From positions 186,001 to 250,000 of the forward strand of contig NZ_BCNB01000001.1 in the NCBI RefSeq assembly GCF_001485575.1: a DNA stretch of 64,000 nt, written 5' to 3'. Source of the DNA: Haloarcula sp. CBA1127 (GTDB lineage Archaea > Halobacteriota > Halobacteria > Halobacteriales > Haloarculaceae). The first letter of the stretch is position 1; the number at the start of each line of letters is the position of its first letter. The notes under the pieces were generated by a model that was given only the letters and a program-made list of their open reading frames with translations, made no database searches and was not told the origin of the DNA. The translations under genes were made by a program, and so were the position numbers. This document shows positions 1,357 to 20,097 of this stretch, piece by piece.

Positions 1357-3140
<1,784 letters not shown>

Positions 3141-3141
<1 letters not shown>

Positions 3142-4307
3142 TAGTAGGATCGTGGGAAGCCGAGGTGCTGCCCGATATGGTTGTACGCCATCTGCTGGGA
3201 AACCGGGGCCAGCCGCGTCAGGTTGATTTCACGCCACCAGCGCTCGACGTCGTACTCCTTCGCGTAGCCCCAGCCGCCAAACGCCTGCATCGATTGTTTG
3301 ACCGCTTCGATGCCAGCACTGACGGCCGTCGCCTTCGCGACGTTTGTCTCGTATCCACACTCTTCGCCCTGGTCGTAGAGCCATGACGCCTTCTCACGCA
3401 TGAGCGCCGCCGTTTCCATGCGGGCGTACGCTTTTGTAATCGGGAACGAGACCGCCTGATGGCTCCCGACAGGCGCGCCAAACACCTCCCGGTCGCTAGC
3501 GTACTCGATAGCAGTGTCGGCGGCTAGCTTCCCGATACCGGTCCCGGCGGCGGCAAAGCCGATGCGTTCCGGGTTCAGCATATCGACCAGGGTCCACCAG
3601 CCGTCGTCTTCCTCGCCCAGCAGGTTCTCCTCGGGGACCCGAACGTCCTCGATGAAGACTTCACAGGACTTCGAATAGTTGATGCCGTGTTTGGGAATCG
3701 GAGACACGTCGATGTTGGGGTCGTCCATATCGACGATGAACAGGCTTATGCCGTCAGTCCCGCGCTCGACCTCGTCACGTGGGGTCGTGCGCGTGACGAG
3801 AATCATATTGTCGGCTCGGTCGGCAAAGGTAATCCAGGCCTTGTTCCCGTTCAGCACGTACTCATCGCCGTCTTTCTCGGCACGGGTTGCGACGTTCAGC
3901 GTATTTGTCCCGGCTTCGGGCTCTGTGATACCGATAGAGAAGTTTCGCTTGCCGTTGGCGATGTCCGGCAGATAGATCCGCTTCTGCGCCTCGGTCCCGT
4001 TCTCGCTGATACCGACAGCGGCCATGCCGGCGGTGAGCACCAGATACCAGGTGCCCGCCATGCCACAGCCTTCGGCACAGAGCGTCTCCATGACCAGCCC
4101 CATTTCCTGTATGCCCATCCCGGCCCCTTCGTACTCCGGCGGGACCAGCAGGCCGTGGAAGCCAGCTGCAGCCAGTTCGTCCCAGAACTCCTCTCCGAAC
4201 TCGCCTGCTTCTTCTTTCTCGCGCCAGTACTCCGGTCCGTACTCGGCCGCCACGTCCGCTGCGGTCGACCGAATCATCGAGCGTTCCTCTGTAGCTTCGA
4301 AATTCAT
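3141..4307 (-). CDS. Acyl-CoA dehydrogenase
   Basis: This FAD-dependent enzyme of 388 residues oxidises an acyl-CoA to the 2-enoyl-CoA and passes electrons to an electron-transfer flavoprotein. The family pattern is clear: [10 protein letters not shown] near 126-135 (flavin/substrate loop), [14 protein letters not shown] (153-166), and a helical C-terminal domain with [18 protein letters not shown]. The position where medium-chain enzymes carry the catalytic Glu (EGT motif) reads LAPVSQ here. A Glu is instead found at residue 247 in [11 protein letters not shown], the position used by isovaleryl- and long-chain enzymes. I therefore infer an isovaleryl-type active site. The gene lies 45 bases after the acyl-CoA synthetase and overlaps the biotin carboxylase gene by one base, so it supplies the middle step of one operon. 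Confidence 0.92.
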
Positions 4308-4352: not shown

Positions 4353-6035
4353 TCAGGACTCGACTTCAGCTTCTGCTTCGGCGTCGTCGTGGAGCTCGGT
4401 TCGGCGGATCTTTCCAGTCACGGTCTTGGGCAGTTCCTCACGGAACTCGATTTCGCGCGGGTACTCGTGTGCTGAGAGTTCCTCCTTCACGTAGCTCTGG
4501 ATGTCGTCTTTGAGGGGGTCAGACGGCTCCGCGTCCTCGCTCGGCACAACATAGGCCTTGACGATGTTCCCCCGCGCTTCGTGAGGTTTGGGCACGACGG
4601 CCGCCTCAGCGACCGCTTCGTGTTCCCCCAGCGAGCTCTCGACCTCGAACGGCCCGATGCGGTAGCCCGAAGAGAGGATCACGTCGTCTGCCCGTCCCTC
4701 GAACCAGAAATACCCGTCTTCGTCCTTGTGTGCCAGATCGCCCGAGAGATACCATTTCCCGTCTGGACCGTCGATGAACGCCCGCTGGGTTTTCTCGGGC
4801 TTGTTCCAGAACTCGGCGAAGAAACACGGGTACTCGCCCCGCTGTGCGATCTCGCCCGTTTCGCCGGGTTCCAAGACCTCACCGCTCTGTGGGTCAACGA
4901 TATCCGCCTCGATTCCGGGGAGTGGCCTTCCCATTGACCCGGGTCTGAGTTCCATCGTTGGGTAGTTGTTGATAATCATGTTCCCGGTCTCAGTCTGCCC
5001 GTACGTATCGAGGATCGTGACACCGAGTTCGTCCTCTCCCCACTCGACGACGCCAGCACTGAGTGGTTCGCCGATAGAGAGCGCGTGCCGTAAATCGAGG
5101 TCGACATCGGCAAGCACGTCTTCGTTTTCCCGAAGCATCCGGTACGCTGTCGGAACCGAAAACAGGACGCTGATCGGGTATTCGTCGAGCAGGGCGGCCC
5201 ATTCGTCGGTGTCGAACTCGCCCTCGTACGTGAACAGCGACGCACCCCAGAACCAGGCACCAAGTGTGTTGATTGCCCCGGTCAGCCAGCCGAGGTCGCC
5301 GGTCGACCAGTACAGGTCGCCGTCCTGAAGATCCACGGCGTATTTCTGCGTTGCCGCGACACCGGCGATCCAGCGCTGTTTGTGGAGGACGCCCTTTGCA
5401 AGCCCGGTCGTCCCCGAAGTGTAGTACAGCAGTGCATCGTCCTCCCCGCTGGTCTCGGCAACCTCGTAGGCAGTGCTCGCGCCGTCAAGCGCGGTATTGA
5501 AAACCACGTCATCGGCGGGTGCGCCGCCACCGCGGTCAACGGTAATCACGTGTTCGACCGCGGGCGCATCGTTCAGTGCGTCTTCGACCGTGTCCCGGTT
5601 GTCAGTCGTGGTGACGACGACCTTCGCGTCACAGTCGTCCAGACGGTACGAGATCCCATCGGGCCCGAACCGCTCGTTGACGCTCCCCCAGACAGCGCCG
5701 TGTTTGAGCGTTCCGACCAGCGCCACGTAGTGCTCGGGGATTCGAGGCATATACGAGAAGACCCGGTCGCCCTGCGCAACCCCGAGGTCGTCAAGGACGT
5801 TGGCAAACTGGCTTGAGCGGTCAGCAAGCTCCCAGAACGTCATTTTCGACAGCTCTCCGTCGGTCCCGACCTGATAGAGTGCGACCTGTCCCCGGTCGGT
5901 CGCGTGTCGGTCGGCAACTTCGTGCCCGATGTTCAGGTCGTTCGGTGCGTCCCAGTCCGCCGCCGCGTAGATATCGTCCCAGGAGAACTCGTTCCGCGCT
6001 GTGTCGTAATCCGGGAGGTTGTGGCTGGTGACCAT
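4353..6035 (-). CDS. Acyl-CoA synthetase (AMP-forming)
   Basis: This ANL-superfamily ligase of 560 residues activates a carboxylic acid with ATP and CoA through an acyl-adenylate. The ATP loop YYTSGTTGLAKG is at 204-215, the TYGQTETGN motif near 344, and the YLSGD motif lies in the C-terminal third. The C-terminal catalytic lysine is in TVTGKIRRTEL (Lys542). The general build resembles acetyl/propionyl-CoA synthetase-like enzymes of haloarchaea, but chain preference cannot be read from sequence. It is the first gene of the minus-strand operon with the dehydrogenase and both carboxylase subunits. Two perfect palindromes lie just upstream (6048-6064 and 6077-6094), so the operon is probably regulated at this point. 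ATG at 6035 follows a GTTATAC box by about 30 bases, consistent with a leaderless transcript. Confidence 0.92.
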   Translation of the reverse strand: MVTSHNLPDYDTARNEFSWDDIYAAADWDAPNDLNIGHEVADRHATDRGQVALYQVGTDGELSKMTFWELADRSSQFANVLDDLGVAQGDRVFSYMPRIPEHYVALVGTLKHGAVWGSVNERFGPDGISYRLDDCDAKVVVTTTDNRDTVEDALNDAPAVEHVITVDRGGGAPADDVVFNTALDGASTAYEVAETSGEDDALLYYTSGTTGLAKGVLHKQRWIAGVAATQKYAVDLQDGDLYWSTGDLGWLTGAINTLGAWFWGASLFTYEGEFDTDEWAALLDEYPISVLFSVPTAYRMLRENEDVLADVDLDLRHALSIGEPLSAGVVEWGEDELGVTILDTYGQTETGNMIINNYPTMELRPGSMGRPLPGIEADIVDPQSGEVLEPGETGEIAQRGEYPCFFAEFWNKPEKTQRAFIDGPDGKWYLSGDLAHKDEDGYFWFEGRADDVILSSGYRIGPFEVESSLGEHEAVAEAAVVPKPHEARGNIVKAYVVPSEDAEPSDPLKDDIQSYVKEELSAHEYPREIEFREELPKTVTGKIRRTELHDDAEAEAEVES

Positions 6036-6205: not shown

Positions 6206-7609
6206 TCAATCAGGCGATTCGTTTTCAGTCGTCTCTCCGGGAGCGGTGGCGAGTTCGTCCCACAGGACACGAGCTACGTCGCGGACGTCGTTCGGGAACG
6301 AATTCTCGAACGTGACTCGCGGCGCGATGTAGGTTTCCTTCCAGCGTGGGTCCCACGCTGCGTTCACGTACAGGCGCGACCCGGTCGCGTTGTCTTGTCG
6401 ATAGTGAGGGCGTGTCGCTGCCGGTGCATCCGGTTCGCTGAACGTCCAGTCGCGGGCCGGGTGAGATTTCAGCCAGATATCGGCCAGAACGCGGCCGAAG
6501 TCCTGTGGCGGAACGTCTGCGTCGACGATGACGACTGTGTCGAAAAGCGACGAGAACGAAAAGAGGATATTCGCGAGTTGCCACTCGAAGCCGCCATAGA
6601 GCACGTCACTCGCCACGAAACAGATCCCGAGTTCAGCTTCTGCCGGCAACATAATCCATTCGACTGGCGAGATGCCCCAGTAGTTGTTGAGCCGATGATA
6701 GAGTGCTGCGGCGGTCGCGAGCCCCGTGAGACGGGTGTCATCCGCGAGTGGACGACCGACGGGAGAGATGGGGATGACCGGGTTTTCAGTAGTGCGGACG
6801 CGCTCTACCGACAGCGAGAGCGGGCCGCTCTCGACGACATACTCCCAGCCCTCTCGACGGTCGGAGCGGAAGTCCGGCTGGCGGTCCACGACCGTCGTCT
6901 CCATGACGACCTCCGTCGCACTCGGGACGAGTCCGCCGTTGGTCGGGACGAGCGGGATGGTTCCGGCCACCCCACAGGACTGGATCGGCGTAGCAGTTTG
7001 CTCGGTGACAGCGAGCAGGTATGCCGTCGTGATCGCCGCCGGTGGCACGCCGAGCGCTATCGCCATCGTCGTCCCTTCACCGACAAGCGACGACAGAGGG
7101 TCCGGAACACGCACTCTGAGCGTGTCGCCACCCACGACCGAGCCGTGAACCGGTGCCCAGTGTGTGCCGTCAGCGGTCGAGACCGAGGCGACGCCGAGCG
7201 TCACTGCAGGCCACGTATCGGTTTCGCCCTGCGGGAACTGCAGGTCCTGTGCGTCGATATCTGTCCCCGAGGCCGCCTGGCCCGTGTACGTCGGTTCCGG
7301 ATTCTCGCCGACCGGGCCGAGAGTGCTGATTGTCTCTAGTAGCTCAACGAGCGTGGCTTCCGGATTGAGTCCGAGCCCGAGCGACAGCCGCGACCACGGT
7401 CTAGCCTCGCGCTGCTGGGTCTGGTCCGGGCCGCTGAACACACCGCTAACTAGATCAGTGCCGGCTGATCGCTGGAATCGAAGTGCCGGCCCACTCGCAC
7501 GGAGCGCCTCCGCTGCAAGCACGTCAACCGGGACCTCGAACGGGCCGTCGAGTCGGACGAGGTCGTCGTCGCCGGCCAGTCCGCGGACGTACTGCGTGAA
7601 CGGTATCAC
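6206..7609 (-). CDS. UbiD-family decarboxylase-like protein, divergent
   Basis: This 467-residue protein is distantly related to UbiD-type (prenylated-FMN) decarboxylases. It keeps the overall order of the fold, with AIALGVPPAAITTAYL, GTIPLVPTNGGLVPSATEVVME, NNYWGISPVEWIMLP and DTVVIVDADVPPQDFGRVLADIW matching family blocks. The stretch that should hold the catalytic E-G-P-[FY]-G-[ED] motif reads REGWEYVVES, so the usual acid/base pair is not intact. It overlaps the canonical UbiD gene by 4 bases (ATGA), so the two are co-translated. It may be a non-catalytic or altered subunit of a heteromeric decarboxylase, as in phenylphosphate carboxylase with its two UbiD-like subunits; that comparison is inference. 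No UbiX (prFMN synthase) is visible in the window. Confidence 0.75.
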   Translation of the reverse strand: MIPFTQYVRGLAGDDDLVRLDGPFEVPVDVLAAEALRASGPALRFQRSAGTDLVSGVFSGPDQTQQREARPWSRLSLGLGLNPEATLVELLETISTLGPVGENPEPTYTGQAASGTDIDAQDLQFPQGETDTWPAVTLGVASVSTADGTHWAPVHGSVVGGDTLRVRVPDPLSSLVGEGTTMAIALGVPPAAITTAYLLAVTEQTATPIQSCGVAGTIPLVPTNGGLVPSATEVVMETTVVDRQPDFRSDRREGWEYVVESGPLSLSVERVRTTENPVIPISPVGRPLADDTRLTGLATAAALYHRLNNYWGISPVEWIMLPAEAELGICFVASDVLYGGFEWQLANILFSFSSLFDTVVIVDADVPPQDFGRVLADIWLKSHPARDWTFSEPDAPAATRPHYRQDNATGSRLYVNAAWDPRWKETYIAPRVTFENSFPNDVRDVARVLWDELATAPGETTENESPD

Positions 7610-9111
7610 TGTGACTGTTCCTCCCGCTCATCGAGTTGGTCGAATCGTGCGGCGTCCAGTCCCGCTTCGACCAGCCGTTCCTGCGCTTGCTTCCGTGTTT
7701 CTGTGGTCGCCGTCGTCTCCGCCGCGTCACCGTCGGTCGTTGCGTCGATGTAGGCTTTGGCCGTCTTCGCCTTCGAAGTCCCCACATCCGCACTGCCCTT
7801 TTCGTCTGGCGTCTGGTAGATGTTGAGCGGGACTTTCGGCATCCGCTCGACACCGAACTGGTGGAAGTCGGCGTCCGGATCGGCCTCAAGTGCGATGGCC
7901 GTCAACACTGCCCGCGGGTCAAGTGGGTCGACAGCAGCGTCGACAAATACGAAGAAGTCGATGTGGAGCATCCCCCACGTCGTGAAGATAAAGTTCGCCA
8001 GTTCGTGGAGATATCCCGGATACGGTCGGTCCGTCGCGATGACCCAGACGGTGCGGGAGGTGAAACGCCACGGGACCGCCATCGAAACGTCGAATCCGGC
8101 GGCTCGGAGTCCAACGGTCGCGTCGGGGCCGGCTGCGACGAGTCGGAGTGTACTCGTCGAGTTCTGTCCGTATCCGACACCGCTCCCTTCGACGCAAAAC
8201 GGTAGCCGCGGTTCGTGGCGGTGGGTGATCGCATCGACCTCGAACACCGGCATGGAGCGTCGCGGGCCGTTCATGTAGCCGAAGTAGTCGCCAAACGGTC
8301 CCTCATCAAGCCGGTCGTCGGGTCGAACGTGCCCTTCGAGAACTAGCTCGGCCGTCGCCGGGACGTACAAGTCATTGGTTTCGCACTGGACGAGGTCCAC
8401 AGGCGCGTTTTTCAGGCCGCCCGCGAAGGCCGCTTCGCTCCGCCCTGTCGGAATCCACATATCCGCGGTACACTCGACAGTGGGTTCGGCACCGATGACG
8501 ACCGCGACTGGCATCGGTTCGCCCCGGGGTTCGTAGTCGTAGTAGTAGCGGTTGGGAACCTGCTCACCGGCCAGTAACAGCAGACTGGCCTGGGAGCCGT
8601 CGTGGATCATCATGCGGTGGCTCGACCACGTCCCCCACTCCGTGTCGGGGTCCGGTGCGACGATGGTGTGGTGATTCGAGTACCGTCCCCCGTCGCCCTC
8701 GTGGATATATGGCCACGGGAACGACAGGAGGTCGACCTCGGTTCCCGTCCGCACTGTTTCTTTGCAGGGGGCCTCGTTGCTTGGGACAGTTCGGGGCGCT
8801 TTCGGCGCGTTGAGGCGATCGATCACTCGGTCGTAGTACGTACGGCCCGAAAGGCCAGTTGGGAGTCCCAGCGCGCGGGCGAAGTGATCCCAGGGGCGCG
8901 TCTGGGGGCCGCGGTACGGATCGCCAACCAGTTTCGACTCCGTCTCTAGCCCCGCGATGGACTCGAACACCGGAATCGGGCCGTCACGGATATTGGCAAG
9001 CATCGTCGCTGCACTTGCTTCGAGGTCCCACGACACCGGTTGGTCGAAGGACCGAAGCCAGCCAGTCGTGTCGAGCAAATCGAGGTACTCGCGGAGCGAA
9101 TTGACTGCCAT
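7606..9111 (-). CDS. UbiD-family decarboxylase
   Basis: This 501-residue protein resembles the UbiD family of prenylated-FMN-dependent, non-oxidative (de)carboxylases that act on aromatic or unsaturated acids. The hallmark EGPFGDYFGYM motif is at 270-280, with Glu270 and Asp275 in the positions of the catalytic acidic pair. Further family blocks are LREYLDLLDTTGWL at the N-terminus, WSSHRMMIHDG near 162-172 (candidate cofactor arginine 166), GAEPTVECTADMW near 208-219 and LVLEGHV near 257-263. A Lys/Thr/Ala-rich tail follows residue 430. It starts 3 bases after a small 164-residue gene and overlaps the divergent UbiD-like gene downstream, forming a three-gene operon. The substrate is unknown. 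Confidence 0.88.
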   Translation of the reverse strand: MAVNSLREYLDLLDTTGWLRSFDQPVSWDLEASAATMLANIRDGPIPVFESIAGLETESKLVGDPYRGPQTRPWDHFARALGLPTGLSGRTYYDRVIDRLNAPKAPRTVPSNEAPCKETVRTGTEVDLLSFPWPYIHEGDGGRYSNHHTIVAPDPDTEWGTWSSHRMMIHDGSQASLLLLAGEQVPNRYYYDYEPRGEPMPVAVVIGAEPTVECTADMWIPTGRSEAAFAGGLKNAPVDLVQCETNDLYVPATAELVLEGHVRPDDRLDEGPFGDYFGYMNGPRRSMPVFEVDAITHRHEPRLPFCVEGSGVGYGQNSTSTLRLVAAGPDATVGLRAAGFDVSMAVPWRFTSRTVWVIATDRPYPGYLHELANFIFTTWGMLHIDFFVFVDAAVDPLDPRAVLTAIALEADPDADFHQFGVERMPKVPLNIYQTPDEKGSADVGTSKAKTAKAYIDATTDGDAAETTATTETRKQAQERLVEAGLDAARFDQLDEREEQSQ

Positions 9112-9114
9112 CAG

Positions 9115-9609
9115 TCACTCCTGTTTTTCGAGGACGCGCCTCAGTGGGTCGTCGTCGAGTTCGCGGCGGACCTCCGCGTAGGCGTCAAGCAGGGCCGGTC
9201 GTTCTGTGGCGAGGTGGTCGAACGCGATCTCGCGAAGCGCATCAGACGTTGACTCGTACTCGCCAGTCTCGACGAGATACTGCAAGAGAACCTTCAGATC
9301 GTCGGACCGGGTGTTGAGGATGTTCGACGCCGTCTCCTGTTCGGCCGCCAGATGGGTCACCAGCTCCTGATCGAGACCGGTCGCATCAGTCTCGTCGAGC
9401 AATTCGACGTATCTGGTCTCGCTGACGCTCTCGTGTGGTCCAGCGACGATTGTTAGCGGTTCCGGGTCAGTGAGCGCATCGGGCTCCTTGGCAATCCGAA
9501 CGCGTGCCTCGAAAATGCGTTTCGTTTGGGCATCCGTGATCTGTAGTGTGGTTTCTGTCTGTGCTTCCTCGGGGAGATGGTCTGCTGACGTGATGTAGTG
9601 GCTCGACAT
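9115..9609 (-). CDS. Hypothetical protein, first gene of UbiD operon
   Basis: This is an acidic 164-residue protein that I do not recognise. There is no signal peptide, membrane segment or cysteine motif. The N-terminal half looks beta-rich (TTLQITDAQTKRIFEARVRIAKEP, PLTIVAGP). The C-terminal half looks helical, with ALREIAFDHLATERPALLDAYAEVRRELDDDPLRRVLEKQE. Its stop lies 3 bases before the UbiD decarboxylase start, so it is co-transcribed and plausibly a small accessory subunit, as small extra subunits occur in some multi-subunit UbiD carboxylases (inference). An ACATATATG element about 55 bases upstream of the ATG (near 9665) is the likely TATA box. Confidence 0.7.
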   Translation of the reverse strand: MSSHYITSADHLPEEAQTETTLQITDAQTKRIFEARVRIAKEPDALTDPEPLTIVAGPHESVSETRYVELLDETDATGLDQELVTHLAAEQETASNILNTRSDDLKVLLQYLVETGEYESTSDALREIAFDHLATERPALLDAYAEVRRELDDDPLRRVLEKQE

Positions 9610-9901: not shown

Positions 9902-11467
9902 ATGAACGGATTGTTTCGCCGGTATCTGGTTGTCGTCGTCCGGTTTCTACCCTTTGCACTGGCATTTCTCCGTGACCGTCGGCGGTTCGTCCTGTTTGGC
10001 TCGCGGAGACAGGTTCCAGACGAGAAACATCGACAGCGAGCCGAGCAGATCCGGGATACGATGCTCGAACTCGGACCGGCATTCATCAAAGTGGGGCAAG
10101 TCCTCTCGACGCGCCCCGATATCGTTCCGCCGGTGTACGCCGACGTTTTCGGAACCCTTCAGGACGAAGTTCCAGAGGGAGCAGGGGGGGATCCAAAACA
10201 CGTCGTTGCGGAAGAACTGGGCGACGAACTCGATCAGTCGACGCTCGAACCGGTCGCCGGCGGGTCGCTCGCGTACGTCTATACGGTAGACTATCGGGGT
10301 GAGCGAATCGCGCTGAAAGTTCGACGTCCCGAATTGAAACCCGTGATTACGCGTGACCTTCGGGTGGTCCGGGGGCTGATTCCGCTGATTCGCCCCTTCG
10401 CTACCGAACGCCAGCAGTATTCGATCGAAAACGCGGCTGACGATTTTGAGGACATCATCCTGAACGAGTTGGATTTCGACCGTGAAGCGACGATCATGGC
10501 CGATATCAGGGAGAACTTCGACGACGATGAGCGAGTCGTCATCCCTGCCATCTACGAAGACCTGTGCTCGGAACGTGTGTTAGCTATGGAGTATCTGACC
10601 GGTCGGAAAATAACCGACGACAGCGCCTTCGACGATGTCGACGTGACGCCACACGAGATGGCGACACGGATCATCAATGTGTACCTGGAGATGGGTCTCG
10701 TCGACGGCGTGTTCCACGCTGATCCCCACCCAGGCAACCTCGGTGTCACAGACGACGGCCGTCTGTTACTCTTCGATTTCGGGATGAGCGAACGCCTGCC
10801 ACCGACGGTTCAGGACGATATCATCGCCCTCTATCGGGCACTCGTTCGCCGTGACGTGGACGATCTGGTTGACGCGCTCATTGCGCTCGATGTTCTCGAG
10901 CCACACGTCAACCGCGCCGAAGTCGGTCGGGTGCTCGAACTCGTCATCGAGAACCTCGAAGGCCGATCGGAGATCACCTGGCGACTTATCATTACGGAGT
11001 TGACGACGAACCTCCGTGCGTTCCCGTTTCGGATTCCGCCGGACGTGATGCTACTCATTCGGGTCGGGACTGTCGGTGAGGGCGTCTGTCGACAGCTCGA
11101 TCCGGAGTTCGACTTCCTCGCCGCTGTTCGCTCGTTCCTCGTCGAACAGGGCCTCATCGAGAGTGAATTCGACGCAATCATCGAGGAAACGTGGACGGAC
11201 GTGCGCCGGTCGCTTCCTGCGCTGGCACGGGTCCCGTCCCGGTTCGAGCGAACGTTGTCGCGGCTCGAACGTGGCGAACTGGTCGTCCGCACGGACTCAG
11301 TCGATGGACGCGGAACGGGTGAGCAGAATCTCGGATACGCGGTGGTCGCCGGAGCGCTCATTGTGGCAGCAGCGGTTCTGACGTTCCACGACCGCCCGTA
11401 CGAGATTCCCGCGCTTGCCGGTGCAGCCAGCTTTCTCCTCGTCTATCTCATCAACATCGAGTCGTAA
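9902..11467 (+). CDS. ABC1/UbiB-family atypical kinase, membrane-anchored
   Basis: This 521-residue member of the ABC1/AarF/UbiB atypical kinase family carries the diagnostic KxGQ motif FIKVGQVLSTRPD (Lys63-Gln66), a modified ATP site in GGSLAYVYTVDY, the HADPHPGN catalytic segment and LLFDFGM as the DFG equivalent. Two hydrophobic segments at the C-terminus (YAVVAGALIVAAAVLTF and ALAGAASFLLVYLI) should anchor it in the membrane. Related proteins support isoprenoid quinone synthesis or lipid homeostasis; the substrate here is unknown. A TTATATAT box near 9828 suggests a short leader before ATG 9902. The upstream gene is divergent, and a MgtC-like gene follows on the same strand after about 200 bases. 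Confidence 0.88.
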   Translation: MNGLFRRYLVVVVRFLPFALAFLRDRRRFVLFGSRRQVPDEKHRQRAEQIRDTMLELGPAFIKVGQVLSTRPDIVPPVYADVFGTLQDEVPEGAGGDPKHVVAEELGDELDQSTLEPVAGGSLAYVYTVDYRGERIALKVRRPELKPVITRDLRVVRGLIPLIRPFATERQQYSIENAADDFEDIILNELDFDREATIMADIRENFDDDERVVIPAIYEDLCSERVLAMEYLTGRKITDDSAFDDVDVTPHEMATRIINVYLEMGLVDGVFHADPHPGNLGVTDDGRLLLFDFGMSERLPPTVQDDIIALYRALVRRDVDDLVDALIALDVLEPHVNRAEVGRVLELVIENLEGRSEITWRLIITELTTNLRAFPFRIPPDVMLLIRVGTVGEGVCRQLDPEFDFLAAVRSFLVEQGLIESEFDAIIEETWTDVRRSLPALARVPSRFERTLSRLERGELVVRTDSVDGRGTGEQNLGYAVVAGALIVAAAVLTFHDRPYEIPALAGAASFLLVYLINIES

Positions 11468-13063: not shown

Positions 13064-15475
13064 TCAGGCGTCGAAAAACTGGTCAGACTCGATTCGCGAC
13101 AGTCGCATCGCGTTTCCGGTGACACCGAGGCTCATCCCCATGTCGCCGACCACGACCGCGAGTGCGACACTGACAAGCCCTAGTGGGACACCCAGTGCGA
13201 GCAGGAACTTCGCACCGAGGCTCACCCAGATGTTCTGCCGGATCACGCCGTTGGCGGTGTGTGACAGCTCGTACAGGTAGGGGAGCTTCCCGATGTCGTC
13301 GCCCATCAGTGCGATGTCCGCCGTTTCCAGCGCGGTGTCGGTGCCGGCAGCGCCCATCGCGATACCGACCTCCGCGGTGGCGAGCGCGGGCGCGTCGTTG
13401 ATCCCGTCGCCGACCATCGCCACCTCGCCGTACTCCGCCTGCAACTCCTCGACTGCATCGACCTTCTCGTCCGGCAGGAGTTCGGCGCGGTACTCGTCGA
13501 CGCCGACCGCATCGGCGATAGCGCGGGCGGTGCCCTCGTTGTCACCGGTCAGCATCACGACGCGCTCGACACCGAGTTCCTGTAAGCGCTGGACGGCCTG
13601 TTGCGAGGCGGGACGTACCTCGTCGGCGATGGCGATGGCGCCCAGCAGTTTCGACTCCGTCCCGATGATAACGACCGTCTTGCCCTCCCGCTCCAGTGCG
13701 GCGAGTGCGTCCTCGGCGAACGCCCCGGCGTCGGACACAGCCGTCTCGTCCGGCACGACGCCACCGTCAGACCGATGAGCTGACGAGCCTCCGGTGGCTC
13801 CACCCCCATCTGTCTCGCACCGAGTACGCGAGAGATCGAAGCCCAACTCCTCGAAGAGCGCGGGCTTGCCCGCGTAGTACGTCTCGCCGTCGATCTCCCC
13901 GGCGATGCCCTTCCCGGTGAGGCTCTCGAAGCCCGTCAGGCCAGGCAGGTCGTCAACACCCTCCTCGTTTGCACGGGCGAGGATCGCTGTGGCGATCGGA
14001 TGCTCGCTGCGCCGCTCCAGTCCGGCGGCGTGACTGAGGAGCGTCGCCACGTCGGTGTCGCCGGCAGGAACGACGTCTGTGACGACGAGTTCGCCCTTCG
14101 TGAGCGTGCCCGTCTTGTCGACGGCGACGGCATCGACCCCGCCCATCGCTTCGAGGTAGTTGCCGCCCTTGATGAGGACGCCGTTCTTCGCGGCGCTGGT
14201 GATACCCGAGACCACCGAGACGGGCGTCGAGATAACGAACGCACAGGGACAGGCAATCACTAACAGCGTGAGCCCACGGATGAACCACGTCTGCCAGTCG
14301 CCGGTGAAGCTGATTCCGTACCCGGCCACGGTCACCGAGACTGGGTCGGCGATTACAAGTGGCGGGATGGCGGCGGTCAGAATCGCCAGCACGACGACGA
14401 CTGGCGTGTAGTAGCCCGAGAACCGGTCGACGAACTGCTCTGTTTCGGTCTTTTTCGCTTGTGCGCCCTGTACCATCTCGATGATGCGCGAGAGCGTCGA
14501 ATCGCCCGCCGTCGACGTGACTTCCACTTCGAGGTACCCCCCTTCGTTGATTGCGCCGGCGTACACTTCGTCGCCAGCGGCTTTGTCGACGGGAATACTC
14601 TCGCCGGTGATCGGTGACTGATCGACTGCGCTCTCGCCCTCAACGACGGTGCCGTCGAGCGGGATTTTGTCGCCGGGGCGGACAACCACTATCTCACCCA
14701 CCTCCACCTCGTCGGCGGGTACGGTCATTTCCTCGCCACCGCGCATGACGGTGGCCTCATCCGGTGATAGCTCCATCAGCTCGCGCAGGGAGTCCCGTGC
14801 CCTGTCCATCGCGTAGTCTTCGAGCAGTTCTGCAATGCTGAACAGGACGGCAAGCGTCGCGGCCTCAACGAAGTAGCCGATGCCAGTCGCAGCGATGATG
14901 GCCGTCCCCATCAGCAGGTCGATGTCAAGACTCAGATTCTTCGCGGAGTAGTAGCCGCTACGGACGACGGGGACACCGCTGACGGCGACAGCCCCCAGAA
15001 ACAGCACATCGGCGGCGTGCAGCGGATAGCTGAGGACACTTGCCACCGCGATGTTCTGTGCCGTCAGGAGAAATTTGAAGAAGAGACCGAGCATGACCAG
15101 CGCCGCGCCGATCCACGTCTTCTTCGCTCGCGGACTCGTCCAGACCTTCGACGGCGGTGCGATATCGGCACCGCCACCCGTCTCCGCTTGCTCGTCGGCG
15201 TCGGAGTCCGGGCCGCCGACGACCTTGTAGCCAGCAGCCTCAATCGCCGTGACCACGTCTGTCTCGCTGGTACGTCCAGAATCGTACGTGACAGTAGCCG
15301 TTCCGGTGGTCGGCTGGAGCGTGGCGTCGACAACACCGTCGACGCGTTGGAGGCTCTTATCTACCTTCTGAGCGCAGGAGGGACAATCCATCTCTGGGAC
15401 TGTGAGGCGGACAGTCAGCTCCTGTTGCTGACCGCCATCACTCGCCTGCCCCGTCGGATCCGGATTCTCTGTCAT
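13064..15475 (-). CDS. zntA: Heavy-metal P1B-type ATPase (Zn/Cd/Pb type)
   Basis: This 803-residue metal-exporting ATPase has one N-terminal heavy-metal-associated domain with MDCPSC (Cys31, Cys34), transmembrane helices, the ACPCAF metal-site motif in the sixth helix, the DKTGTLTKGE phosphorylation site, a SEHPIATAIL nucleotide-binding HP motif and GDGINDAPAL. CPC plus a single HMA domain fits the Zn2+/Cd2+/Pb2+ export subfamily rather than copper, though copper cannot be excluded. A longer frame begins at a TTG codon at 15526 and runs through a palindrome; I prefer ATG 15475 (MTENPDP). The gene follows a Bat-type regulator with about 60 bases between them, which hold the likely operator. 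It converges with the MgtC-like gene across about 140 unremarkable bases. Confidence 0.9.
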   Translation of the reverse strand: MTENPDPTGQASDGGQQQELTVRLTVPEMDCPSCAQKVDKSLQRVDGVVDATLQPTTGTATVTYDSGRTSETDVVTAIEAAGYKVVGGPDSDADEQAETGGGADIAPPSKVWTSPRAKKTWIGAALVMLGLFFKFLLTAQNIAVASVLSYPLHAADVLFLGAVAVSGVPVVRSGYYSAKNLSLDIDLLMGTAIIAATGIGYFVEAATLAVLFSIAELLEDYAMDRARDSLRELMELSPDEATVMRGGEEMTVPADEVEVGEIVVVRPGDKIPLDGTVVEGESAVDQSPITGESIPVDKAAGDEVYAGAINEGGYLEVEVTSTAGDSTLSRIIEMVQGAQAKKTETEQFVDRFSGYYTPVVVVLAILTAAIPPLVIADPVSVTVAGYGISFTGDWQTWFIRGLTLLVIACPCAFVISTPVSVVSGITSAAKNGVLIKGGNYLEAMGGVDAVAVDKTGTLTKGELVVTDVVPAGDTDVATLLSHAAGLERRSEHPIATAILARANEEGVDDLPGLTGFESLTGKGIAGEIDGETYYAGKPALFEELGFDLSRTRCETDGGGATGGSSAHRSDGGVVPDETAVSDAGAFAEDALAALEREGKTVVIIGTESKLLGAIAIADEVRPASQQAVQRLQELGVERVVMLTGDNEGTARAIADAVGVDEYRAELLPDEKVDAVEELQAEYGEVAMVGDGINDAPALATAEVGIAMGAAGTDTALETADIALMGDDIGKLPYLYELSHTANGVIRQNIWVSLGAKFLLALGVPLGLVSVALAVVVGDMGMSLGVTGNAMRLSRIESDQFFDA

Positions 15476-15512
15476 CACTTCATGATAGGCGCGTGAGTTC
15501 GATAAGGCTTTG

Positions 15513-15526
15513 TTGGAATATTCCAA
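15513..15526. promoter_or_regulatory. Palindromic operator candidate before the metal ATPase
   Basis: TTGGAATATTCCAA is a perfect 14-base dyad in the 60-base gap between the regulator stop and the ATPase start. It ends about 38 bases before ATG 15475, just upstream of where a TATA box is expected. A metal-sensing dimer or the adjacent Bat-type regulator may bind it. Confidence 0.45.
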
Positions 15527-15535
15527 TTCAGGGAA

Positions 15536-16291
15536 TCAACGTGATACCGATGATTCCTCAATCACTCGCCTGCCCGCGACGTACTGCTTCGCCAGTTGTT
15601 CCTCAGCCCGACGCAGTCGGTAGGTGAGCGTCGACCGGGGGACATCGAGGTGCTCGGCTAACTCGCCGACATCGACCTCCCGAGGAGACTCGTAGTAACC
15701 GTGCTCGACGGCGGCCCGGAGTGCGGCCTCTTGCTCCGGCGATAAGGCACCGTGTGTCCCATCGAATTCTCGCATCGACGCCGTCGTGTCCGCAGTGCGG
15801 AGTATCTCCATCTGAGCACTTTCCCCGACGGCCCCCGCGAGGTCATCAAAGAACGCGGCCACGTCGCCCTCGCCGGAGTGAATGAGCCGCCACGTGTAAT
15901 GACGGCCCTCGTGGCGCGTCTCGAACAGCACACCCTCGCCCAGGTGGTCTCGGGCGATGTGGGGAACTGAGGCACAGGCGGGGGTGCGTACCCAGTCGGA
16001 GTAGAGGACAAGCGTGTCGTCGGCGCGGTCGAGGACGCGAGTGGTCTGGGTGGCACCGCAGTCCTCGGTGGCGAGACAGTCGGCGTAGTAGTCACTGGTG
16101 AGAAAGGCGTCTTCGATGGCGTCGAGTGCCTCGGGAGTTCCGGTAGCGTGGTCGACGCGCCAGAGACGGTTAGCTGTGGCATGCAGCGACAGCGAGCGGA
16201 CACGAGCCTCGGGGTGCTCGGCGAGGGCGTCTGCAACCCTGTTGGAGCCCGGCTCGTAGTCGAGGGCGAAAACGAGTTCGCGCATACGCAT
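15536..16291 (-). CDS. Bat-type HTH transcriptional regulator
   Basis: This 251-residue regulator belongs to the haloarchaeal bacterioopsin-activator-like (HTH_10) group. The C-terminal domain carries ALRAAVEHGYYESPREVDVGELAEHLDVPRSTLTYRLRRAEEQLAKQYV, the usual HTH_10 arrangement (seen here as consecutive short blocks at about 187-240). The N-terminal part is a sensor-like region of unknown ligand. It contains clustered cysteines (DYYADCLATEDCGAT and RTPACASVP), which could bind metal, though this is only suggestive. The gene lies directly upstream of, and on the same strand as, the P-type ATPase, so control of that exporter is the simplest proposal. The start could be ATG 16291 or ATG 16285. 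Confidence 0.82.
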   Translation of the reverse strand: MRMRELVFALDYEPGSNRVADALAEHPEARVRSLSLHATANRLWRVDHATGTPEALDAIEDAFLTSDYYADCLATEDCGATQTTRVLDRADDTLVLYSDWVRTPACASVPHIARDHLGEGVLFETRHEGRHYTWRLIHSGEGDVAAFFDDLAGAVGESAQMEILRTADTTASMREFDGTHGALSPEQEAALRAAVEHGYYESPREVDVGELAEHLDVPRSTLTYRLRRAEEQLAKQYVAGRRVIEESSVSR

Positions 16292-16478: not shown

Positions 16479-16523
16479 TAACAGCGGAACCAGTGGGGTG
16501 GCTAACAGCGGAACCAGTGGGGT
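16479..16523. repeat. Two tandem origin recognition boxes 3' of cdc6
   Basis: Two copies of TAACAGCGGAACCAGTGGGG start at 16479 and 16503, a 24-base period, both in the same orientation. The second runs into the stop codon of cdc6. They match the boxes found on the other side of the gene (17791-18398), so cdc6 is bracketed by initiator-binding sites. Confidence 0.8.
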
Positions 16524-17710
16524 TACGGGCTTTTTTTCAGGAGTTCTGACAACCCTGTTTTGATCGAGCTGATGGATTGCTCTAACTCGAATTCCTTGTA
16601 CTTGCCACCGCCTTTCCCTCGGTTGTACTCCGCTGAGGACACAATGCCGAGTTGTGTGAGTTCACCGAGATAGTCACGGACCGAACGCTCTGAAACCGGG
16701 TCCAGTCCCTCATCACGTGCTAACTCCTGATACGCGCCCAGAATATCTCGTGTCCGGGCCGGGGTGTCATCGTCTTCGGCGAGCCCGGTGAGCGCATAGA
16801 GAACGAGTTGGCCGTGATCGGAGTAGTTACGGATACCTTCAACGACTTGGTCGGTTTGAAGCCGTTGCCGAGCTTCGCGTACGTGATGTTCCGTTACGAG
16901 TTCATCGTCGTACTCCCGAGCAAGGTCTCCGGCCTCAAGGAGGAGGTCCAGCGCCTGACGGGCGTCCCCGGAGTCTTTCGCGCCGTACGCAGCACACATT
17001 TCTATGACACCGTCATCGAGGACATCATCCTGAAACGCGACGGCCTCACGCTGTTTCAGAACGAGCTGAAGCTCGTTGGCGTTGTACGCCGAGAAGGACA
17101 CTTCCTTTTCACAGAGACTCGACCGGACTTTCGAGGACAGTTGGTTGCGGAAATCGAGATCGTTTGAGATACCGATGACGCCCAGTTTCGCTTCGGAGAT
17201 ATCACCGTTCGATCTGGCACGGGGAAGCTTGTACAGCAGCGAATCGTCCTCAATGTGATCGACTTCGTCAAGAACGATGAGTACCGTGCCGCCCAGGTCA
17301 TCGAGTGCGTCGAAGAGGAATTGATACACCGAAGCCTGTGGATATCCGGTGTTTGAGATTTGGTTCGCTGGGTCACGAAGTGTGTTGACGATTGCGACCG
17401 CGGCCTGATAGCTCGAATTGAGTCCATCGCAGTTGACTTCGACCGTACTGAGGTCCAGTCCGTCGACATCTGCTGCATCGCGTTCCAGAGCGGAGAGAAG
17501 GTATCGGGTGGCAGCAGTCTTCCCGACACCGCTTTTCCCGTACAAAAAGATGTTCGACGGAGTCTCGTTGTTGATGACTGGCTGGAGAGCAGCGTGATAC
17601 TTCTGGAGCTCCTCGTCACGTCCGACGAGCTCCTCAGGAGTCCACTCTTCAAGTAGTGCCTCGCGCTGTTCGAATATTGTGGAGGTGGGCGAAAACGTAA
17701 TATCGCTCAT
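16523..17710 (-). CDS. cdc6: Orc1/Cdc6-family replication initiator
   Basis: This 395-residue AAA+ initiator recognises origin boxes and loads the MCM helicase. Walker A is GKSGVGKT (58-65). Walker B is VLIVLDEVD (142-150, with Asp147 and Glu148). Sensor 1 is GVIGISNDLDF, sensor 2 lies in DARQALDLLLEAGD, and a C-terminal winged-helix domain (RTRDILGAYQELARDEGLDPVSERSVRDYLGEL) contacts DNA. The flanking repeats at 16479-16523 and 17759-18398 are its probable binding sites. A TTAAGAC stretch about 28 bases upstream of ATG 17710 may be the TATA box and lies beside the first half box, so autoregulation is likely. The pairing of cdc6 with its own box set points to an active or recently active origin. 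Confidence 0.95.
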   Translation of the reverse strand: MSDITFSPTSTIFEQREALLEEWTPEELVGRDEELQKYHAALQPVINNETPSNIFLYGKSGVGKTAATRYLLSALERDAADVDGLDLSTVEVNCDGLNSSYQAAVAIVNTLRDPANQISNTGYPQASVYQFLFDALDDLGGTVLIVLDEVDHIEDDSLLYKLPRARSNGDISEAKLGVIGISNDLDFRNQLSSKVRSSLCEKEVSFSAYNANELQLVLKQREAVAFQDDVLDDGVIEMCAAYGAKDSGDARQALDLLLEAGDLAREYDDELVTEHHVREARQRLQTDQVVEGIRNYSDHGQLVLYALTGLAEDDDTPARTRDILGAYQELARDEGLDPVSERSVRDYLGELTQLGIVSSAEYNRGKGGGKYKEFELEQSISSIKTGLSELLKKSP

Positions 17711-18466: not shown

Positions 18467-18931
18467 TCACCGCGGCTCGAAGACGTGAACCGGCCAGTCG
18501 GTCTCGTAGTCAAGAGCGACCTCCTGCTCTGTGGCCGTCGGCTCACGCACCGTGAGTTCGACCGGGTCCCCGATGGTGACATCGGCGTAGTCGGCGGCGA
18601 CGCGCCCAAGCAGGCGGCCACCGTCCGCGAGTTCCACGACGGCGACCGTGTAGGGCGCGTCCGCTTCGAAGGCCGGCGGCGGCGTGTGGACCGCCGTGTA
18701 CGAGAAGATCTGGCCCTCGGGGGACTGTGGTTCGACGTCGACATCGCGACTGCCACAGGCGTAGCAGGCCGGTCGTGGCGGCAATAGAACCTGTCCACAG
18801 TCCGCACAGACCCCGCCCAGGAGTTCGCCAGTGGCGAGCGCATCGAAGAAGCCCGGCAGCGTCCGCGGGTCGGTCGCATCGAGGCCGCCGTCAGTCATGC
18901 TGTCTCGGCTGGCATCGAGGTTGCCGGTCAT
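18467..18931 (-). CDS. Zn-ribbon/OB-fold (DUF35) acyl-CoA partner protein
   Basis: This 154-residue protein has a rubredoxin-like zinc ribbon (Cys42, Cys45, Cys56, Cys59 in CADCGQ and CYACGS) followed by an OB-fold with ADYADVTIGDPVELTV. DUF35 proteins bridge or donate acyl-CoA to thiolase-like partners; in archaea one holds thiolase and HMG-CoA synthase together. Its start overlaps the stop of the thiolase gene by 4 bases (ATGA), so the two proteins are almost certainly partners. The in-frame Met12 (MTDGG) is an alternative start. No HMG-CoA synthase is visible here, so the pair may serve another Claisen-type or thiolytic reaction. Confidence 0.87.
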   Translation of the reverse strand: MTGNLDASRDSMTDGGLDATDPRTLPGFFDALATGELLGGVCADCGQVLLPPRPACYACGSRDVDVEPQSPEGQIFSYTAVHTPPPAFEADAPYTVAVVELADGGRLLGRVAADYADVTIGDPVELTVREPTATEQEVALDYETDWPVHVFEPR

Positions 18932-20097
18932 GGTGCCTCCGCCGTCGTGAGCACGTGACCAACGGTAACCGCATCCCCAACGCCCCCTTCGTTGAGCAAC
19001 AGGGCCGTCTCAGCACCCTCGACGGCCCGGTCGCCCGCAACGCCCGTGAGCTGTTCGTAGGCTTCAAGCGCCTGCAGGAGCCCGGTTGCACCGATAGGGT
19101 GACCGCGGGCCTTCAGTCCCCCACTCGGGCTCAACTGCACGTCCGTCCAGCCGTCAGCTCGCTCCGCTGGTGACAGGTAGCTCTGATAGCCCGTTCCTGC
19201 GGGAGCGAAGCCGGCGGCCTCCGCGAGCAACGCCTCGCAAACGGTGAAAGCGTCGTGGACCTCCGCGATGTCGACGGCCGCGGCGTCGATGCCTGCTTCC
19301 TCGTAAGCCGTCTCGGTAGCAACGCGAGCGCCCGCGATGTCGGTCATATCCCGCTCAGCGACCGCGATGTTGTTCGCAGAAGCCCCAGTGCCCGCGACGC
19401 GCACCTGTGGTTGGTCAAGCTCGGCCGCCATCTCGGCGGTCGTCACGAGGACGGCGGCGGCACCGTCTCCGACCGGCGCACAGTCGTAGAGCTTCAGCGG
19501 CGGGGCAACGGGGTCCGATTCCAGCACGGTCGCCACGTCGATCTCCTTCGGAAACTGCGCCCGGGGGTTGCGAGCGGCGTTGGCGTGGTTCTTCACTGCA
19601 ATCTCGGCAAGGTCCCGTTCTGTGGCGTCGGTCTCGTGGAGGTAGCGCTGACCGAGCAGTGCGTACTGGCTGGGTGCGGTGATGCCGGACCGCTGCTCGA
19701 TGGCGCGGTCGAACGCCGCCGAGAGCGCGTCCGTCGCGCCGCTGGTGCCCGCGGACGTCATCTTCTCGACGCCGCACGCGAGCACTGCCTCGTGTTCGCC
19801 GTTGCGGACGTCCTTGACTGCGTGCCGCAGCGCGAGCGCGCCCGCGGCGGCACACCCCTCGACTCGCTCTGCGGGGACGTGGCGGAGGCCGGCCCACTCG
19901 GCCAGCAGCGTCCCCTGCATAATCTGGTGTTCGTAGGTCTCCGACTGGTTGCCGACGTACACCGCTTCGACGATGTCGGCAGGGTCGGGCAGGTCGTCGA
20001 ACGCCTCCGCAAGCGCGACCGAAAACAGGTCACGGCCCGGGAGGTCTGTTCGGCCGAGTGGTGAGGCACCGACCGATGCGATAACTGGCTCTGGCAT
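18928..20097 (-). CDS. Thiolase-family protein (SCP-x/archaeal type)
   Basis: This 389-residue thiolase-fold protein keeps the nucleophilic cysteine in VEGCAAAGALAL (Cys82) and the histidine in GLKARGHPIGATG. The C-terminal block where bacterial thiolases have C-x-G-G reads LLLNEGGVGD. That replacement is typical of SCP-x-like and archaeal thiolases, so it does not argue against activity. The likely reaction is acyl-CoA C-acetyl transfer or cleavage in the cytoplasm. The partner DUF35 gene overlaps downstream. No other fatty-acid gene is adjacent, so pathway assignment is open (acetoacetyl-CoA formation, beta-oxidation or side-chain thiolysis). Confidence 0.87.
   Translation of the reverse strand: MPEPVIASVGASPLGRTDLPGRDLFSVALAEAFDDLPDPADIVEAVYVGNQSETYEHQIMQGTLLAEWAGLRHVPAERVEGCAAAGALALRHAVKDVRNGEHEAVLACGVEKMTSAGTSGATDALSAAFDRAIEQRSGITAPSQYALLGQRYLHETDATERDLAEIAVKNHANAARNPRAQFPKEIDVATVLESDPVAPPLKLYDCAPVGDGAAAVLVTTAEMAAELDQPQVRVAGTGASANNIAVAERDMTDIAGARVATETAYEEAGIDAAAVDIAEVHDAFTVCEALLAEAAGFAPAGTGYQSYLSPAERADGWTDVQLSPSGGLKARGHPIGATGLLQALEAYEQLTGVAGDRAVEGAETALLLNEGGVGDAVTVGHVLTTAEAP

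Follow-up and report, generated by a model that had tools for sequence, protein, structure and literature searches.

How does a UbiD-type enzyme work in a cell that encodes no UbiX? UbiX is a flavin prenyltransferase, and the accepted view is that enzymes of the UbiD family require prenylated flavin mononucleotide (prFMN); to our knowledge UbiX is the only source of this cofactor, and we know of no flavin prenyltransferase other than UbiX. The question is raised by three adjoining genes, here called the trio, in a 64,000-nucleotide stretch of DNA from the haloarchaeon Haloarcula sp. CBA1127 (positions 186,001 to 250,000 of contig NZ_BCNB01000001.1; hereafter the window). These genes encode a small protein (P0003), a putative catalytic subunit of the UbiD family (P0002, or alpha) and a divergent protein of the UbiD fold that is without the acid triad (P0001, or beta). 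On balance, we favor the view that the trio specifies a heteromeric UbiD-type decarboxylase or carboxylase with an inactive partner, and that in haloarchaea this enzyme works without UbiX. The original prediction, made from the letters of the DNA, had placed three open reading frames here, and our analysis confirmed them together with both motifs it had singled out, namely EGPFGD at residues 270–275 of P0002 and REGWEYV at residues 252–258 of P0001. The last 4 nt of the P0002 gene are shared with the start of that for P0001, and a gap of 3 nt separates the end of the P0003 gene from that for P0002. The two UbiD-like proteins are 23% identical across 399 columns, and a profile–profile alignment joined them over 444 columns (probability 99.4).

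The absence of UbiX emerged from searches of 292 genomes of the class. Matches to PF01977, the UbiD family, were present in 89 of these genomes, comprising 66 that carry the trio and 23 others, and the UbiX model TIGR00421 scored above its cut-off in 23 of the 292, which are exactly the 23 UbiD genomes that have no trio; none of the 66 trio genomes, that of the window included, had a TIGR00421 match above the cut-off. One further genome (G228) was left out of the UbiX count, reducing it from 24 to 23, as its match fell below the cut-off and had the size of a CoaBC protein. Every trio genome had exactly one match to the broader model PF02441, and every UbiX genome had two or three; the single match in the window genome is a 388-residue protein of the CoaBC type and was rejected as a UbiX candidate. 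A split of this kind would arise by chance with a probability of 9e-22 if genomes were independent, which they are not; it does, however, hold across 21 genera with the trio and 12 with UbiX, including the two genera in which both kinds of genome occur. The window genome is 99.97% complete. The trio genomes have no UbiX, and therefore an assay with prFMN supplied, as had been proposed for these proteins, is not to be equated with the natural reaction.

Alpha looks catalytically able because it retains the residues on which Fdc1, a characterized UbiD enzyme, relies, and because of what is known of Fdc1 mutants. P0002 matched PF01977 with 220.6 bits (cut-off 23.3), and its profile matched Fdc1-type chains in the PDB with E of about 1e-62, in an alignment (7nf0) that is free of gaps around the active site. 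On that alignment, the counterparts of Arg173, Glu277 and Glu282 of Fdc1 (R166, E270 and D275) are kept in all 67 readable members of the family, as is E226, the counterpart of Glu233. According to the published mutant study, Fdc1 needs an acid at both position 277 and position 282, and the E282D variant stays active (PMC5818171). The original prediction had called alpha a canonical UbiD, a description that holds for the acid triad and fails at the predicted cofactor and metal site, at which the asparagine equivalent to Asn168 of Fdc1 is gone in 65 of the 67 alphas. This asparagine is present in 19 of 20 UbiDs, none of them a beta, that we used for comparison, as against 2 of 67 haloarchaeal alphas, and on the strength of that conservation we treat it as probably defining the UbiD family. 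We take it to coordinate the Mn ion by which the phosphate of prFMN is held; on that assumption the aspartate found here in 29 of 67 alphas could still bind a metal, whereas the arginine found in 16 could not. That UbiD enzymes bind prFMN by way of Mn and K ions is described in PMC7976604. Two further replacements, a glutamate at position 190 and a tryptophan at position 226, are not shared by any of the 20 comparison UbiDs, though both columns are variable there; columns 190, 191 and 226 all vary among ordinary UbiDs and so weigh less than position 168, and for the same reason we rejected the exchange of His191 for glutamine as a special feature in its own right.

Beta, by its model, has the three-domain fold of UbiD. 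Against Pfam it scored above the cut-off for UbiD_C (50 bits; cut-off 24.2) and fell short for UbiD_N (20.5; 24.3) as well as for the model of the central domain (17.1; 23.3), and its profile matched Fdc1 with E of 6e-23. AlphaFold2 models were made of P0001 and P0003, each as a single chain. That of P0001 had a pLDDT of 79.1, with residues 378–438 and 453–467 poorly modeled, and matched UbiD structures with a best Foldseek E of 2.2e-22 and, in VIA, with Z of 34.9 over 366 residues at 3.2 Å (7abo_B). There is no conserved acid at the positions of Glu277 or Glu282, as both columns vary among 68 betas, and the position of Arg173 holds histidine in 32 and arginine in 30 of them. Beta thus yielded no intact Glu277/Glu282 pair, and its description as catalytically altered has stood. 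An invariant Trp–Glu pair, W255-E256, lies beside the degenerate EGPFGE site. The most conserved part of the protein is its C-terminal domain, which contains many invariant positions, whereas mean column identity over beta is 45%.

The three genes travel together. A search of the 292 genomes with P0001 gave matches in 68, of which 66 were counted as trio members; the other two (G217 and G285, E of 6e-7 and 2e-8) encode ordinary UbiDs with neither a beta nor a small gene. The 66 genomes hold 68 trio loci, and the co-occurrence in relatives on which the original prediction had hung proved strong, all three genes being present at 67 of the 68. Neighborhoods were fetched for the 67 loci besides the window. 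Alpha and beta were present at every one of these, alpha being cut by the contig end at one (L056), and BLAST recovered the small gene at 65; in the L056 genome it lies at the opposite end of the same contig, and at L096 it is missing. At all 65 fetched loci with three readable genes the genes are co-directional, and alpha and beta are spaced by −4 nt in 59 of these 65, with each start chosen by rule as the one closest to that of the window protein. Every relative with a name is a haloarchaeon, the 66 loci concerned being from Haloarcula, Natrinema, Natrialba, Halorubrum, Haloferax, Halobellus, Haladaptatus and further genera. In a separate draw of 98 relatives, a full-length small protein was detected in 23 genomes, namely 21 known trio genomes and two new ones, in both of which the trio was then found. 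Ratios of nonsynonymous to synonymous substitution rates (dN/dS) against six relatives were 0.10–0.20 for P0001, 0.07–0.16 for P0002 and 0.05–0.17 for P0003, and all three genes are under purifying selection. On annotated plasmid records the alpha/beta pair carries the label "UbiD family decarboxylase".

A search of 392 genomes across the phylum with the beta profile uncovered two betas outside the haloarchaea, one clear (G493; E 6e-49) and one fragmentary (G465), each beside genes for a UbiD alpha and small proteins. At one outside locus (L182) the order is alpha, an 80-residue open reading frame, a beta that reads EGPFTG and has lost Glu282, a 112-residue open reading frame and a PaaK-type ligase; at the other (L184) it is a ParA/NUBPL ATPase, a 118-residue open reading frame, alpha, a 93-residue open reading frame and a beta that reads EGPYLN and is cut by the contig end. 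In a tree of 50 sequences built with IQ-TREE, the haloarchaeal alphas join the two outside alphas (UFBoot 100), and the betas, haloarchaeal and outside alike, are set apart from the rest by a branch with support 99. Because the tree joins outside alphas to alphas and betas to betas, the alpha/beta pair is, on this evidence, older than the haloarchaea. Both outside genomes encode UbiX, and both outside alphas keep Asn168 and Gln190; it is in the haloarchaeal branch that UbiX and this asparagine are absent.

The original prediction had described the first gene as small and of no known kind. It is indeed the first of the trio, but its product is not featureless. An alignment of 30 small proteins, together with the AlphaFold2 model of P0003 (pLDDT 79.4, pTM 0.50), points to an N-terminal beta domain (residues 1–78) followed by a C-terminal domain that resembles the ribbon–helix–helix (RHH) fold. 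In VIA, the C-terminal helices matched SegB, both in 7duv_A (Z 6.5, 73 residues, 3.2 Å) and in a DNA complex, 7dv2_A (Z 6.0, 76 residues, 3.7 Å), and the RHH domain of ParD (7ycw_A; Z 4.3, 52 residues, 4.2 Å); all RHH-type matches had Z below 8, yet they stood above the remaining ones. The profile A2 also matched two stand-alone proteins over residues 92–158 and 105–158 of P0003 (1.2e-4 and 7.9e-4), both of which are RHH_1 proteins by Pfam (5.6e-9 and 2.1e-10; L205:324-557 and L206:328-570). These stand-alone proteins are a possible source of the domain fused in the small subunit. P0003 itself had no Pfam or NCBIfam match above the cut-off, no RHH model of Pfam reached an E of 1 or less with either the whole protein or its C-terminal 73 residues, and neither phmmer nor profile searches of PDB sequences gave anything significant. 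Its N-terminal beta domain had no clear match in Foldseek or VIA, where LOV-type hits (Z 2.0–2.5) were at the level of noise. We regard DNA binding by P0003 as a hypothesis that its modeled fold suggests.

Several characterized systems resemble the trio in part. The exchange-active core of phenylphosphate carboxylase from Thauera aromatica (PpcABCD) is described as two UbiD-like subunits of 54 and 53 kDa with a 10-kDa subunit (PMC6114531), and the trio likewise comprises two UbiD-like genes and a gene for a small subunit. However, P0002 and P0001 scored only 151 and 28.8 bits against the Ppc alpha model (cut-off 564.6) and 104.5 and 18.4 bits against the Ppc beta model (cut-off 468.95), and we do not file the trio as a phenylphosphate carboxylase because these scores are far below the cut-offs; unlike Ppc, moreover, the trio occurs in a genome without UbiX. 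A PpcC-type identity for P0003 is unsupported, there being no NCBIfam match above the cut-off, though that library may lack a gamma-subunit model. The naphthalene carboxylase of N47 and the benzene carboxylase AbcDA are reported to combine several UbiD-like subunits with small "linker" proteins, upstream of a coenzyme A (CoA) ligase (PMC10570749, PMC12016498), and ParA-type ATPases accompany the "linker" proteins in the naphthalene carboxylase cluster (PMC10570749), much as a ParA/NUBPL ATPase adjoins the outside relative L184; no ParA gene turned up in the part of the window trio's neighborhood that was scanned. Those systems come from anaerobes and have prFMN as their proposed cofactor, and we liken the trio to them by gene pattern. 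The phenylphosphoamidate carboxylase of Desulfatiglans anilini jointly requires two UbiD-like subunits, with FMN (flavin mononucleotide) reported to suffice (PMC7500099), but according to the same source these subunits are 52% identical and encoded in separate clusters, and the genome has a UbiX-like gene. VdcBCD and LpdD are cases in which a small protein associates with a UbiD enzyme or activates it (PMC8379154, PMC10865409). P0002 scored 181.5 bits against VdcC (cut-off 650), and the idea that P0003 is a zinc ribbon like VdcD was rejected, since VdcD has four cysteines and P0003 none; LpdD has a Pba3/4-like fold, to which none of the matches listed for P0003 pointed, and a likeness to LpdD could still hold. 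P0003 resembles SegB and ParD in the structural pairing of its C-terminal part and differs from both in its extra N-terminal beta domain and in adjoining a UbiD pair. The proposal that the locus resembles heteromeric carboxylases thus survives as regards the pairing of active with inactive UbiD-like proteins, the conserved small gene and the published analogues, and does not in itself place the trio in the Ppc or naphthalene type. In the open-licence part of PubMed Central we found no paper on the trio or on UbiX-less UbiDs in haloarchaea.

The genes that surround the trio bear on what the enzyme might act upon (Table 1). A co-directional run extends from the trio to window position 1357 and continues beyond the window, where a carboxyltransferase gene and one for a RipB-like MaoC hydratase follow; still further out lie genes for a RipC-like CitE lyase and PaaB/PaaC. 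PaaB and PaaC genes for phenylacetyl-CoA epoxidase lie at L114:2536-3896, some 7.5–9 kb downstream of the biotin carboxylase gene. The adjoining ligase suggests that the trio enzyme hands over a free acid. The downstream genes are those of acyl-CoA catabolism and indicate no aromatic substrate, so that the "aromatic" part of the original prediction is unproven. Trio loci fall into two contexts. In the first (clade A, 36 loci including the window) the trio is followed by the dehydrogenase and biotin carboxylase genes, which were present at 35 of the 35 fetched loci (the biotin carboxylase gene being cut by the end of the stretch at two), with the ligase between them and the trio at 31. In the second (clade B, 32 loci) a hydrolase of the metallo-beta-lactamase (MBL) fold is encoded nearby at 26 of 32 loci (L061:4881-5942 among them), as against none of the 35 fetched clade A loci; in one clade B example its gene directly follows that for beta. 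Clustering of open reading frames revealed no neighbor beyond the trio that is common to most loci of both contexts; the gene caller was rough and set over-long starts, and only counts of presence were used.

Table 1 Positions in the window of the trio, of the residues discussed and of the genes downstream.
Feature	Position	Strand	Remarks
P0003, small gene	9115-9609	minus	164 aa; first of trio
RHH-like stretch of P0003, residues 95-146	9172-9327	minus	VIA and profile A2 matches
P0002, alpha, putative UbiD-family catalytic subunit	7606-9111	minus	501 aa; PF01977 1.6e-65
T161 of alpha (Fdc1 N168 position)	8629-8631	minus	family D29 R16 T12 S4 H4 N2, n=67
R166 of alpha (=Fdc1 R173)	8614-8616	minus	67/67
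E183-Q184 of alpha (=Fdc1 Q190-H191)	8560-8565	minus	E and Q in 67/67
W219 of alpha (=Fdc1 P226)	8455-8457	minus	W in 67/67
EGPFGD motif of alpha, E270 (=Fdc1 E277) and D275 (=E282)	8287-8304	minus	67/67 readable alphas
P0001, beta, divergent UbiD-fold protein without acid triad	6206-7609	minus	467 aa; GTG start; UbiD_C 3.8e-13
W255-E256 of beta, beside degenerate EGPFGE site	6842-6847	minus	68/68
AMP-forming acyl-CoA ligase, next downstream	4353-6035	minus	PF00501 8e-73; MbcS 2.8e-128, below cut-off
Acyl-CoA dehydrogenase	3141-4307	minus	PF00441 1.5e-29
Biotin carboxylase/carrier subunit of acyl-CoA carboxylase	1357-3141	minus	PF02786 1.2e-74

Two genomes hold two trios each, one per context (L038 and L096 in G212; L065 and L089 in G290); in G212 the clade A copy is without the small gene, and that of the other copy is divergent and shorter. 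A gene for a UbiB/ABC1-type kinase (PF03109 3.9e-53; window 9902-11467, plus strand) diverges from the trio, adjoins it in some Haloarcula loci and is farther away or absent in others, and probably lies outside the trio unit. Elsewhere in the window, on the minus strand, a heavy-metal P-type ATPase that carries an HMA domain is encoded next to a HVO_2928-type HTH_10 regulator (13064-15526 and 15536-16291), and a thiolase is paired with a ChsH2-type zinc-ribbon/OB-fold protein (18467-19962); near clade B trios, an HMG-CoA-synthase-like protein bears a fused ChsH2-type domain. The window also encodes, at 16523-17710 (minus strand), an Orc1/Cdc6 replication initiator (Cdc6_C, Cdc6_lid), on the same 272-kb contig as the trio, and 17 matching records are present in the plasmid collection. 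Given that gene and those records, secondary replicons may often carry the trio.

Taken as a heteromeric enzyme, the trio would work as follows. Alpha would be the catalytic subunit, its Arg166–Glu270–Asp275 network acting on a flavin-type cofactor, and beta, itself inactive, would shape or complete the complex, for which its C-terminal domain, strongly conserved as it is, would probably be responsible. In P0003 a subunit domain of beta strands would be combined with an RHH-like one, and the protein may also dimerize the complex or enable it to act at its own promoter. The acid that is made or used would pass to catabolism as a CoA thioester, starting in the window genome at the adjoining ligase. 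As UbiX is absent and the asparagine at position 168 is lost, the cofactor is therefore probably other than prFMN made by UbiX, unless a prenyltransferase of another kind supplies it. In its fullest form, which we offer tentatively and hold to be slightly less probable than its negation, the proposal is that of a UbiD carboxylase lineage freed from UbiX, which would use plain FMN, F420 or a flavin modified by another enzyme after the loss of the metal-site asparagine and a change of the pocket (Glu190, Gln191, Trp226); its partner would be a pseudo-UbiD, and the subunit with the RHH domain would perhaps couple enzyme assembly to transcription. Several observations weigh against the reading that we favor. 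The residues required for prFMN chemistry are retained in alpha, a point in favor of a cofactor like prFMN; UbiX is present in both genomes that hold the outside relatives; for the metal role that we ascribe to Asn168, a search for papers on the metal ligands of Fdc1 found none; and the likeness of the small genes between haloarchaea and the outside loci is weak (best E 0.0059, in a tiny database). In addition, the dehydrogenase occurs in 62 of the 292 genomes, 26 of which have it away from any trio and 23 of these without a trio at all; the acyl-CoA pathway therefore does not need the trio, and the notion that the downstream genes exist solely for it is unsupported.

The most serious alternative, which we nevertheless think unlikely, is that alpha performs ordinary prFMN chemistry with true prFMN from an unrecognized flavin prenyltransferase unrelated to UbiX. 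The intact Arg–Glu–Asp network, the retention of the residue equivalent to Glu233 and the residence of the nearest outside relatives in UbiX genomes all favor it, but the loss of Asn168 and the acquisition of Glu190 and Trp226 are confined to the lineage without UbiX, no such prenyltransferase is known to us, and no candidate for it is linked to the trio, no neighbor being shared by most loci of both contexts. That the trio is instead a sensor without decarboxylase activity, its proteins of the UbiD fold serving to capture a ligand and P0003 controlling the catabolic genes nearby as a regulator of the RHH type, would suit the RHH-like domain of P0003, its position as first gene of the operon and the loss of the asparagine in alpha; the universal retention of the catalytic arginine, glutamate and aspartate among alphas is hard to explain without catalysis, however, and makes the idea quite improbable. 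We give just as little credence to a beta with a different activity of its own at Trp255–Glu256 and the conserved C-terminal domain: the invariance of both residues and of many C-terminal positions in all 68 betas, despite low overall identity, speaks for it, whereas beta is always encoded with alpha, with a 4-nt overlap at most loci, and the outside archaeal betas are without the Trp–Glu motif just as they are without Glu282. Finally, that an ordinary UbiD is accompanied by a decaying duplicate is barely credible; beta has indeed diverged far from alpha, but its dN/dS, its persistence at 68 loci and a split from alpha older than the haloarchaea led us to reject it as a decaying copy.

A heteromeric UbiD-type enzyme that operates without UbiX remains the reading that we favor, and the strict split between 66 UbiD genomes without UbiX and 23 with it would then mean either that UbiD enzymes can use another cofactor or that there is a second route to prFMN. 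Were either true, UbiD enzymes would be opened to hosts and conditions in which prFMN is limiting. The haloarchaeal complex, whose hosts are cultivable and in part genetically tractable, may also offer a convenient stand-in for the heteromeric carboxylases that act on aromatic compounds in anaerobes, and a means of studying what an inactive UbiD-like partner does.

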